A stretch of 36,609 bases of DNA from Enhydrobacter aerosaccus. GTDB lineage: Bacteria > Pseudomonadota > Alphaproteobacteria > Reyranellales > Reyranellaceae. The position numbers were made by a program, and so were the translations under genes. The DNA lies in contig CAIWTJ010000305.1 in NCBI GenBank assembly GCA_903915535.1, forward strand, positions 1 to 36,609, read 5' to 3'. How positions within the stretch are numbered: position 1 is the stretch's first letter; the number at the start of each line of letters is the position of its first letter. The notes under the pieces were generated by a model. It worked only from the letters and a program-made list of their open reading frames with translations, ran no database searches and was not told the DNA's origin. Positions 9,193 through 36,609 of the stretch are shown piece by piece.

Positions 9193-10817
9193 GCCGGCAC
9201 CTGCGGCTGCTCGAGCCAGGCCTGGAGCCGCCGGCACAGCCAGACCACGATCATCACCACTGCGGTGTAGAAGATCAGCAACAGCCAGTAGGTCGTGACC
9301 CGGCCTGTCGAGAAGGACGAGATGTCGGTGAGCGCCGTCAGCAATTCGGGCGCTCCGATGAAGCTCGCGGTCGGCGTGCCCTTGGCGGCATTGACCAGGA
9401 ACGACACGATCTGCGACGCCGAGCGCGCGAGCGCCCGGCCGAACAGACCGTCCCGCACGCCTTCGGCCCGCAGGCTCGTCATCGCCTCGCCGATCGCCTG
9501 ACCCGCATTGGCGCCGTTGGTGAGGCCGAGCGCCACGATCGCCGAGCAGATCGCGGCCCCCGCCGTGGCGGGAAACAGCGCATGCGACAGCGCCGAGGCG
9601 ATCACCAGCGTGAGCACGATCGGCGAGGATTGCAGCACGATGGTGAGCATCCGCGCCAGCACATGCGGCAGCGCGGTGCGCGCGCCCTGCGCGGCGCCAA
9701 GCAGCAATGCAAAGCCCAGGGTCGCCGCCAGCGCGCCGGCGATCAGCAAGAGCGAGGTGGCAACGCCGCTCTTGAACAGCGACCAGGCCGACTCCGTCTT
9801 GAGCATCGGCAGCTGCAGGTCGATGTCGAGATGCGCCTCGACCCACGATTCCAGCACCGTGACGGGGAGCGCGAAGCGCGTCGGCTTCAGTTCGCTGTTG
9901 AGCGCGGGCAGGATGCACGCCGAGCGGTTCGGCCCGTCGGCAATGTTGCAGTCCAGGCGGTTCCACACCGCCTTCTGCTGCTCGAGAAATGCCGTCGCGA
10001 TCTTGTGGCGGCGCGCGAGTTCGAGGAACACGCCGTCGCGATGGAAGATCGCGCTCATCAGGTCCAGCGCGCGCGCCAGACGGTCGCTGCCGGTCCGTGC
10101 CACCGCCATGCCCCACGGCACCTGGGCGAAGCCGAACTTCTCCACGAACGATTTGGCAAAGACCGGATCGGCCAGCGACGCCGCAAAGAAGCTGTTGTCC
10201 TGGGCGGCAAGGGTGCAGGTGCCGTTGCGCAACCGATCAGGCAGCAGGCCCGCTTCGTCGAACAGCATCAGGCGCGCGCCATGGGCGACCAGTTCGGCGT
10301 TGGAGCCGTTGCCCACGGTGGCGCAGATCGTACGCTCGGGCACATCGACCCAGCTCGACACCTTCAGCGCCGGCGCACCGACGAGAACCGTCTCCGATTG
10401 ATAATAATGCGGCCGCACGAAGCGCACCTGCCCCGAGCGCTGGGTGTTATGGCCCATGGTCGCGATCGCGACGTCGATCCTGTCTTCCGCCAGCAGCGGG
10501 ATTCGGTTGGCCGCGTTCACGAGGCTGAAGTCGGCCTCCACGCCCAGCCTGGCCGCGATAGCGTCGGCCACGTCGATCTCGTAGCCTTGCCGCGTGTTGT
10601 TCTCGTGCGTGGCGAACAGCGGATAAAAGTCGCGCACGCCCACCCGGATATGCCCGCCGCAGAGGATTCGCACCAGCCGGTCGCTCGCGGGCTGGCTGCA
10701 GGACGCACGCGCTTCGTCGAGCATCTTCGCGAGTTCTACATCGGGCGATTGAGCGGACGATTGCGCCGACGCGGGCAGGGCCGCGACCAGCGTCAGGAGC
10801 GCAAGCCACCACCGCAT
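9189..10817 (-). CDS. Fused amino acid ABC transporter substrate-binding/permease protein
   Basis: A 542-residue fusion. Residues 1-19 are a signal sequence; about 50-290 form a family 3 solute-binding domain (GGHIRVGVRDFYPLFA, GYEIDVADAIAARLG, DVAIATMGHN); about 345-540 form a permease domain with several membrane spans (WSLFKSGVATSLLLIAGALAAT onward). Fusions of this kind are known in GlnP-type transporters. A linker at about 290-335 contains two cysteines (LDCNIADGPNRSACIL) that could form a disulfide. The EAA-loop region ALTNGANAGQAIGEA... is recognisable. It starts one base after the methyltransferase stop and overlaps the second permease. Substrate is probably an amino acid or similar small solute. 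The missing ATPase is odd. Confidence 0.87.
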   Translation of the reverse strand: MRWWLALLTLVAALPASAQSSAQSPDVELAKMLDEARASCSQPASDRLVRILCGGHIRVGVRDFYPLFATHENNTRQGYEIDVADAIAARLGVEADFSLVNAANRIPLLAEDRIDVAIATMGHNTQRSGQVRFVRPHYYQSETVLVGAPALKVSSWVDVPERTICATVGNGSNAELVAHGARLMLFDEAGLLPDRLRNGTCTLAAQDNSFFAASLADPVFAKSFVEKFGFAQVPWGMAVARTGSDRLARALDLMSAIFHRDGVFLELARRHKIATAFLEQQKAVWNRLDCNIADGPNRSACILPALNSELKPTRFALPVTVLESWVEAHLDIDLQLPMLKTESAWSLFKSGVATSLLLIAGALAATLGFALLLGAAQGARTALPHVLARMLTIVLQSSPIVLTLVIASALSHALFPATAGAAICSAIVALGLTNGANAGQAIGEAMTSLRAEGVRDGLFGRALARSASQIVSFLVNAAKGTPTASFIGAPELLTALTDISSFSTGRVTTYWLLLIFYTAVVMIVVWLCRRLQAWLEQPQVPA

Positions 10818-33925: not shown

Positions 33926-36609
33926 ATGGCGCCTCCCTTCACCTTCCCCGCCCTGATCGCCACGGCGCGCGGCGCTTTGTGGCTGTCGGCGGACGGTACG
34001 ATCGAGCGACTCACGGCGCCTGAAGCGGCGCTGCGCTCGGCGCGCGCGATGCCGCTGGTCGTGCACGCCCCGGCCGTCGCGGCGCGCCTCGGCCTCGACA
34101 ACCTGCCGGCGCGCGACCTGCTGGAACTGTACGCCTTCGTCCATCCGGCGACGTTCTGTTTGCCCACCGTGCGCGGCCTCGCCGCTGCCCTCGACGTGAC
34201 GGTGGGACCGACGCCCGAAGACGAGCTGGCCGCCCTGCCCCGGATCGCCCAGGCGCTGGTCGGTTCGCTGGAGGACATGGCGGCGCTCGCCTCGCCCGAG
34301 TTCAAGGACATCGCGCTGACCATGGCGCGCGGCGACTGGGCGTGGGGCGACGCGGTGCTGCTCGCGCTCGACGTCAGCCCGCCCCCCGGCAAGAAGCCGC
34401 GCCCCGGCGCCGGCCTCGACATCTGGAAGAGCCTCGCGGCGTGGGAAGAGCCGCCGCCCGCCACGCCGCCCGGCAGCGAACCGGTCGAGCCGCGCGAGGC
34501 GCGCCTGCGTCTCGCGCAGATGGTCTCGGCCGGCCCGAACATGGCCGAGGCGCGCCCCACGCAAAGCGACTACGCCTCCGCCGCGTCCGAGGCCTTCGCG
34601 CCGCGCCTCGTCGAGGACCAGCCCAACGTCGTGCTGGTCGAGGCCGGCACCGGCGTCGGCAAAACGCTTGGCTACGTCGCGCCCGCCAGCCTGTGGGCGG
34701 AAAAGAACGGCGCGCCGGTCTGGATCGCCACCTACACGCGCAACCTGCAGCGCCAGATCGACAACGAGCTCGACCGGCTGCACCGCGACTCCGCCGAGAA
34801 GCGCCGCAAGGTCGTGATCCGCAAGGGCCGCGAGAACTATCTCTGCCTGCTGAACTTCCAGGAAGCGGTGAGCCGCACCGGCCTCGCGCCCGAGAATGCC
34901 GTGGGCCTGGGCCTGCTGGCGCGCTGGGCCTTGGCCAGCCGCGACGGCGACATGCTGGGCGGCGATTTGCCGGCATGGCTACTCGACCTGATCGGCCGTT
35001 TCCGTCTCCAGCGTCTCGCCGACCGGCGCGGCGAGTGCATCTACTCCGCGTGCGAGCACTATCGGAAGTGCTTCGTCGAACGCACGATCCGGCGCGCGCG
35101 CACCGCCGACATCGTGATCGCCAACCACGCGCTGGTGATGGTGCAGGCCGCGATGGGTGGCCTCGACGATGCCACGCGCCCGCTGCGCTATGTGTTCGAC
35201 GAGGGCCATCACCTGTTCGACGCGGCCGACGGTGCGTTCGGCGCGCATCTGTCGGGCGTCGAGTGCTCGGACCTGCGCCGCTGGCTGCTGGGCGCCGAGG
35301 GACGGCGCGGCAGCCGCGCGCGCGGCCTCGAAAAGCGCGTGACCGACCTGCTGGGCGAGGACGTCGAGGCGAAGAACGCGCTCGGCCGCCTGCTCGACCT
35401 GGCGCAACGCCTGCCCGCGACCAACTGGCAAACACGACTGGCCGACGGCACGGTGCTGGGCCCGGCGGAAGAGTTCCTGGCACTCGTGCGCGTGCAAGTG
35501 CGCGCGCGCGCGGCGGGCGAGGACCAGGGCTTCGGCCAGGAATGCGACGTGCGGCCGCTCAATCCCGGGCTGATCGAAGCCGCCGACCAGCTCGCCAAGC
35601 TGTTCGAGCAGATGCTGATCCCCGTGCGCAGGCTGCGCCAGGCGCTGCGCACCAAGCTCGAGAGCGAGGCCGATGCGCTCGACAGCGGCCAGCGCGGCCG
35701 CATCGAGGGTGTGGCGCGTTCGCTCACCAACCGCTGCGAGCTCACGCTGGAGGCGTGGCGCGCCATGCTGCGCGGCCTGCACAACGAGGCCGATCCCGTC
35801 TACGTCGACTGGTTCGCGATCGAGCGCAGCCAGACCCGTGAGACCGATGTCGGCATGTACCGCCACTATCTCGACCCGACCGAGCCGTTCGTGAACGCCG
35901 TGATCAAGCCCTCGCACGGCGCCGTCATCACCTCGGCCACCCTGCGCGACTCCCTGGGCTTGCCCTCCCCCGCCAACGACGACTCCGTACGGGACCGCGG
36001 AGCTCCAGCTCCGCTCATGTCTTCCGATCCCGCAGCCGCGATGAACATGAGCCCGAGCGGAGCGGGAGCTCCGCGATCCCGTGAAGACACGCCCGGCGAC
36101 TGGCTCTCCGCCGAAGCGCGCACCGGCACGCGCCACCTGCAGGCGCCGGCGGTGCGCGCTGCTATGGCCTCGCCGTTCGACTACGCCGTCAATACCAAGG
36201 TATTCGTGGTGAAGGACGTGAAGCGCGACGACAGCGACCAGGTGGCGGCCGCGTACCGCGAGCTGTTCCTGGCGAGCGGCGGCGGCGCGCTGGGCCTCTT
36301 CACCGCGATCGGACGGCTGCGCGCCGTGCACCAGCGCATCGCGCCCGCGCTCGAGGAGGCGAACCTGCCGCTGTACGCCCAGCATGTCGGCGGTATGGAT
36401 GCGGCCACATTGGTCGACATCTTCCGCGCCGAAGAACATTCCTGCCTCCTCGGCACCGACGCGGTGCGCGACGGCGTCGACGTGCCCGGCCGCAGCCTGC
36501 GCCTCATCGTGTTCGACCGCGTGCCGTGGCCGCGCCCCGACATCCTCCACCGCGCGCGCAAGGCGCACTGGAAGGACAAGATGACGTCGGGCGGCGCGGG
36601 CAGCGCCAA
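33926..36609 (+). CDS. DinG/XPD-like ATP-dependent DNA helicase (3' end cut by window)
   Basis: An open frame of 894 codons to the window edge, read from ATG 33926. It is a superfamily 2 Fe-S helicase: Walker A EAGTGVGKT (Lys246), four cluster cysteines (307, 371, 376, 382), DEGHH (425-429) for motif II, and SATLRD, FTAIGRLRAVH, LGTDAVRDGVDVPG and RVPWPRPDILHRAR for the later motifs. The first 230 residues are a variable N-terminal part that I do not recognise. It probably unwinds forked or damaged DNA or R-loops. It is divergent from the amine oxidase gene with 31 bp between start codons. A 94-bp palindrome interrupts the coding sequence in frame (residues about 688-719). The stop lies beyond 36609. 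Confidence 0.93.
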   Translation, partial: MAPPFTFPALIATARGALWLSADGTIERLTAPEAALRSARAMPLVVHAPAVAARLGLDNLPARDLLELYAFVHPATFCLPTVRGLAAALDVTVGPTPEDELAALPRIAQALVGSLEDMAALASPEFKDIALTMARGDWAWGDAVLLALDVSPPPGKKPRPGAGLDIWKSLAAWEEPPPATPPGSEPVEPREARLRLAQMVSAGPNMAEARPTQSDYASAASEAFAPRLVEDQPNVVLVEAGTGVGKTLGYVAPASLWAEKNGAPVWIATYTRNLQRQIDNELDRLHRDSAEKRRKVVIRKGRENYLCLLNFQEAVSRTGLAPENAVGLGLLARWALASRDGDMLGGDLPAWLLDLIGRFRLQRLADRRGECIYSACEHYRKCFVERTIRRARTADIVIANHALVMVQAAMGGLDDATRPLRYVFDEGHHLFDAADGAFGAHLSGVECSDLRRWLLGAEGRRGSRARGLEKRVTDLLGEDVEAKNALGRLLDLAQRLPATNWQTRLADGTVLGPAEEFLALVRVQVRARAAGEDQGFGQECDVRPLNPGLIEAADQLAKLFEQMLIPVRRLRQALRTKLESEADALDSGQRGRIEGVARSLTNRCELTLEAWRAMLRGLHNEADPVYVDWFAIERSQTRETDVGMYRHYLDPTEPFVNAVIKPSHGAVITSATLRDSLGLPSPANDDSVRDRGAPAPLMSSDPAAAMNMSPSGAGAPRSREDTPGDWLSAEARTGTRHLQAPAVRAAMASPFDYAVNTKVFVVKDVKRDDSDQVAAAYRELFLASGGGALGLFTAIGRLRAVHQRIAPALEEANLPLYAQHVGGMDAATLVDIFRAEEHSCLLGTDAVRDGVDVPGRSLRLIVFDRVPWPRPDILHRARKAHWKDKMTSGGAGSA
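35989..36082. repeat. Imperfect palindromic element embedded in the helicase reading frame
   Basis: The left arm (35989-36019) and the reverse complement of the right arm (36046-36082) match at 29 of 31 positions, the right arm having six extra bases; both begin acggga and share cgcggagctcc. A 26-base loop separates them. The frame is kept, adding about 32 residues between SATLRD and GDWLSAEARTG. Both strands read RDRGAPAPL near one end and SGAGAPRSR near the other. This is the behaviour of a protein-embedded palindromic repeat such as the Rickettsia palindromic elements; that it is repeated in the genome is inferred. Confidence 0.75.

Follow-up and report, generated by a model that had tools for sequence, protein, structure and literature searches.

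A REPIN-type palindrome lies in frame in a predicted disordered linker of a DinG-family helicase gene of Reyranella

A helicase gene of the DinG family in Reyranella carries, in frame, a 94-bp palindrome that has many relatives elsewhere in the same genome. The window, as the whole stretch of DNA analysed is called here, comprises 36,609 nt of one contig of Enhydrobacter aerosaccus (Reyranellaceae). The palindrome is best explained as a REPIN that was copied by a RAYT and tolerated as a disordered linker of DinG, a reading to which a probability of about 0.8 is given. The element would be a non-autonomous REPIN, composed of two short hairpin-forming REPs in inverted orientation, and it was most likely copied, via a single-stranded hairpin, by a Y1/HUH-type RAYT transposase whose gene lies elsewhere in the genome. 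The insertion would have taken place in the ancestry of the window's Reyranella, after its split from the relative G052, into a variable linker that follows the sequence TSATL. Because the frame is kept and free of stops, the REPIN is presumably translated; it would encode about 32 disordered residues, mostly Pro, Ala, Ser, Gly and Arg-rich sequence, and its presence would be tolerated rather than selected. The basis for mobility is presence and absence between relatives.

The host gene occupies positions 33926-36607 on the plus strand, where 894 codons were read from a start codon of our choosing; the genome is assembled in 306 contigs, and the dinG gene runs off the end of its own. The gene has the domains and fold of a DinG/XPD-like helicase, and its best Foldseek match is DinG of E. 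coli (6fws, E 7.6e-13). The NCBIfam DinG/YoaA equivalogs match it below their cut-offs, and a Pfam scan alone gave it no DinG name, with a DEAD match below the cut-off; the gene is a member of the DinG family and not a named equivalog. In an AlphaFold model of moderate quality (35 sequences, mean pLDDT 68), residues 671-721 form a coil with pLDDT below 50 between TSATL and a helix, and the linker holding the palindrome is predicted to be disordered. We take TSATL to be helicase motif III and the insertion place to be the link between the two motor domains. The insert would add a flexible loop to a working DinG.

The palindrome itself spans positions 35989-36082 (unstranded; about residues 688-719). 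Its left REP (35989-36016, plus strand, 28 nt) is identical to the inverted ends around a RAYT gene on contig C193, and its right REP, in inverted orientation (36055-36082, minus strand), is identical to the left one at 26 of 28 positions. The two arms (93% complementary) are separated by an enlarged spacer of 38 nt (36017-36054, unstranded), and where BLAST matches of the element elsewhere in the genome extend over this spacer, they are short and score poorly, at E 0.885 or worse. The window has 11 listed inverted repeats (copies of at least 18 nt, at most 150 bases apart), of which only this one exceeds 85% complementarity. The first-pass annotation had described an imperfect palindrome with 29 of 31 arm positions paired, which is borne out: 26 of 28 positions pair in the arms, and pairing of CTCATG with CATGAG around a 6-base bulge raises the count to 29 of 31 (by eye). 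It had also held that the palindrome keeps the frame of a DinG-like gene, that both strands encode RDRGAPAPL...SGAGAPRSR in matching phase and that conserved host residues follow directly. All of this stands, as the frame is open across the palindrome within the 894-residue reading frame, the matching phase was seen on inspection by eye, and DinG is conserved on both sides. The hairpin modelling that it proposed yielded a strong RNA fold for positions 35980-36092 (-62.6 kcal/mol, z -6.3), equalled by none of 200 shuffles.

The suggested search for other copies in the genome uncovered a large family. With the 94-bp element as BLAST query there were 62 matches (E up to 10), most of which cover one arm and the weakest of which are at chance level, while a repeat model gave 97 matches (both strands, E up to 0.01), which collapse by hand to about 50 sites. 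This model was built from 26 copies of the genus Reyranella, found via similarity to one copy of the window's genome, and includes no dinG copy. The list for the window's genome has 52 entries, made of model matches and contig-end BLAST pieces and collapsed by hand; two of them are halves around the transposase gene RAYT1, and some pieces at contig ends may represent opposite ends of a single copy. The model has matches in all 61 genomes of the genus at E 0.001, with just one or two in some and the weakest genome, G022, at that very value; the DNA query has matches in 17 of 25 genus genomes and in none of 16 others. Covariation supports folding into one long hairpin (96.3% of cells paired) as well as into two hairpins (96.6%), and the choice of either as the one conserved fold was rejected. 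In copies with unlike arms each short hairpin stays paired, and in such copies it is the short hairpins that are slightly better preserved.

Other repeats accompany this family. The contig begins within half of a second REPIN, of type B (1-46, unstranded, E 4.5e-6), followed at about 52-82 by a further REP-like hairpin, GCGCCATTGGAGTGGCGC. In the window's genome, G000, REPINs of 92-99 bp enclose a second, nested hairpin built around variants of ATTGACC...GGTCAAT (C189:4558, C245:42065, C297:16181, C93:1064, C141:14368 and the right end of the transposase gene RAYT2, L270). The genome G024 has, immediately upstream of dinG, an additional REPIN of a different type (L090:2881-2951). One copy in the window's genome (L244, G000:C285:5358-8425) lies in the middle of an inverted duplication that matches perfectly, over 664 bp in the stretch compared; this is probably an assembly fold-back. 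That copy, and the position of 12 of the 52 entries at contig ends, would fit a dinG palindrome that is itself an assembly chimera formed at a repeat; the conserved DinG residues continuing on both sides, and further long loops in the single-contig genome G016 and in Enhydrobacter aerosaccus ATCC 27094, leave that reading a probability close to nil.

Several features place the element among REPINs. Two REPs in inverted orientation form a hairpin, the copies are many, dispersed and mostly extragenic (3 of the 52 entries lie in frame in genes), and a RAYT gene flanked by the same REP is present in the window's genome. This genome has two RAYT-type transposase genes. RAYT1 (C193:3346-3576) lies between perfect inverted arms of 28 nt that equal the left arm of the window element, and a PDB sequence search with it, at a threshold of E 0.01, gave a single match, TnpA-REP of E. 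coli (4er8, E 5.8e-5). RAYT2 (C141) is flanked by a second REP subfamily (by eye). At 22 of 30 fetched RAYT loci the gene is enclosed by inverted arms, of several REP types, that match perfectly over 15 nt or more; applied to 156 control sites next to dinG, the same scan found one such case. Not every relative conforms: PF01797 was found in 30 of the 61 genus genomes, with none at threshold in the other 31, and it speaks against copying by RAYT that about half of the genus genomes hold repeats without a detected RAYT. Repeat-rich genomes are among these (model matches on both strands: at least 79 in G002, at least 79 in G054 and at least 83 in G021), and the same PF01797 search gave no match in G003, which carries a dinG insert, nor in G052. 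These absences could stem from incomplete assemblies or from lost RAYTs. By eye, the repeat shows neither the unpaired GTAG end tag of the GTAG-tagged REP superfamily nor the CGTC/TGTC/CCTC tag and A/T-starting stem of 8-9 bp of the CGTC-tagged superfamily; its own stem starts with G-C.

The history of the insertion was read from orthologous loops. A motif filter that requires an open frame read 89 of 110 fetched DinG loci and missed 21, mostly from other genera; removal of 27 contigs found twice left 62 distinct rows. The loop has 33-34 residues in 49 rows, 44-66 in eight, 39 in one, 38 in two and 24 in two. An absence from close orthologues had been proposed as a check and was found: the nearest ones, G052 (96% identical), G001 and LIN-13, have a loop of 33-34 residues and lack the palindrome, and the window row falls with these three insert-free rows in a fully supported clade. 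As the three nearest orthologues and 49 of the 62 share the 33-34 residue loop, the window palindrome is, by comparison of these sequences, a derived insertion.

Long loops are not confined to one lineage. At least four changes of the label 'long loop' are needed, whether it is mapped on the protein tree or on a DNA tree of 25 selected rows, and the grouping of the eight long-loop rows as one clade is rejected on the latter (AU p 1.6e-52). Tree changes alone cannot separate gain from loss; gains are preferred because the 33-34 residue loop is common across the rows, and the pattern is read as gains, with a minimum of one loss or additional gain around G002. It is very unlikely that a single old insertion in the genus was lost many times and that its recurrence is only apparent. 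The ambiguity of the change counts would allow this, as would the putative REPIN excisions reported in Pseudomonas (Bertels and Rainey, 2011, PMC3116915), but 49 of the 62 orthologues, across Reyranella clades, have the common loop, many losses would each need to restore the same length, and the inserts are of different types.

These types are distinct at the sequence level. Six of the eight long loops match the repeat model at the loop (the window, G011, LIN-12, G003, G024 and G016; the best E value of each row lies between 5e-13 and 1.3e-4), while the model has no match at the long loops of G005 and G059 or in five no-insert control rows; in the 39-residue row (L130) a match at E 4.4 barely touches the loop edge. 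The loop of G005 holds an unrelated palindrome of TGTC type, TGTCATCCTGAG..., in frame in dinG (L060/L092) and similar to repeats in all six genomes searched; this insert, TGTCATCCT, may be closer to the CGTC-tagged REPs. The insert of G059 is an extra 30 nt that match no recognised repeat. The inner stems of the dinG inserts differ between rows, and fold z-scores are strong in six of the eight and not in G011 and G059 (mononucleotide shuffle). The loop codons flanking the palindrome differ from those of relatives, and within these diverged flanks no target duplication or exact empty site is evident, which speaks against the preferred reading. It appears that the same dinG spot has been struck more than once in related species, by different palindromes.

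In-frame copies inside genes number six among 134 surveyed entries of four genomes: three in dinG, two in the gene for E2 of pyruvate dehydrogenase (PDH) and one in that for PDH E1beta. Among the matches listed they amount to 3 of 52 in the window's genome, 2 of 50 in G024, 1 of 20 in G003 and 0 of 12 in G052, in a survey that gene-breaking copies would escape and for which G024 and G003 were picked partly for carrying a dinG insert. Both flanks were readable for 40 of the 52 entries and one flank for 12, as for one entry of G052; the coding-potential scan had 21 window ORFs as its training set, of which we judge two to be probably false. The PDH copies sit in Ala/Pro-rich linkers. The E2 linker was read in 29 of 30 fetched loci, with inserts (by eye) in G000, G001, G024 and G005, and E1beta in 20 of 30, with an insert in G000 only. 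The E1beta and E2 linkers of the window's genome (L262, G000:C18:8421-8481 and 9866-9926) hold in-frame REPINs with shared flanks, which suggests local copying between the two genes; because of these flanks the two copies are probably not independent. A preference for repair genes as a rule is not borne out, PDH copies being as many as dinG copies.

Forty intergenic copies have on average 3.25 of six frames open, so that survival in frame is plausible once a tolerant linker has been hit. The hairpin is very stable, as might be expected if the palindrome were an intron-like or ribosome-bypassed segment that escapes translation. This is extremely unlikely, in that all eight long loops are open and in frame (among rows found with a filter that required an open frame) and the PDH copies are open too, whereas bypass needs neither frame nor absence of stops.

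A benefit of REPs in replication and repair genes has been put forward as speculation (Di Nocera, 2013, PMC3733652), and the recurrence in dinG could reflect one if the loop altered DinG activity or the mRNA hairpin altered expression. Such selection is unlikely. The fact that several lineages have long dinG loops, whose inserts are not all of one type, the strong hairpin in dinG mRNA and the share of dinG among the in-frame copies (three of six) would fit it; yet the encoded peptides differ between lineages, the insert of G059 is short and unrecognised, G002 is nested among carriers and has no insert, the other three in-frame copies lie in PDH genes, which are not repair genes, and the linker stretch is variable also in insert-free relatives. 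Under the preferred reading of a tolerated insert, the DinG linker would be one of few permissive places inside genes, and its repeated hits in the genus would follow from that scarcity. A bolder proposal, which we regard as quite unlikely, is that the linker after TSATL in Reyranella DinG is a true hot spot at which unrelated mobile palindromes are repeatedly captured as protein, that the captured loops tune a helicase acting on the single-stranded DNA that RAYT elements need, and that element and helicase co-evolve. An in-frame palindrome in a protein is tied here to a transposase gene of the same genome with ends of the same sequence, and one linker offers a natural series across the genus (empty, intact, shortened and of another type), by which the status of REPs in repair genes as passengers or as selected parts becomes directly testable.

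The closest known system is that of REPINs and RAYTs (Bertels and Rainey, 2011, PMC3116915), with which the Reyranella repeats share inverted REP doublets forming a hairpin, many dispersed and mostly extragenic copies, and RAYT genes flanked by a matching REP. They differ in the core of the hairpin, GGACC-GCGGACCT-CC-AGGTCCGC-TCATGA, and in the in-frame copies in dinG and PDH genes. Reyranella was not found mentioned in the accessible text of that paper, nor was a description of such repeats in the genus found in the open literature searched, a scope that leaves most subscription papers outside. In TIRtrons (TIRYT), too, a RAYT-like gene is enclosed by palindromic inverted repeats, which also occur as families of dimers (Di Nocera, 2013, PMC3733652). 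The same source sees tyrosine transposase genes and repeat families as not obviously correlated, which counts against the RAYT reading. It already records intragenic, in-frame REPs, many of them in replication or repair genes; in recB of two Xanthomonas species the REPs differ but sit at roughly the same place. The sections of that text considered here do not name dinG or PDH, the gene list being in its supplement; as far as they go, the Reyranella case differs in that the recurrence is mapped on a tree and extends to a second repeat type, unrelated to the first. The likeness to the in-gene palindromes of Rickettsia drawn in the first-pass annotation proved apt, at the level of description, in that RPE-4 and RPE-6 are filed under REPs and Rickettsia palindromic elements are likewise intragenic palindromes kept as extra peptide (Di Nocera, 2013, PMC3733652). 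By description, the Reyranella palindrome differs from these elements in that a candidate transposase gene with the same ends is present in the window's genome. Its kind is thus already known, and the repeated hits on one linker are what the Reyranella dinG genes add.
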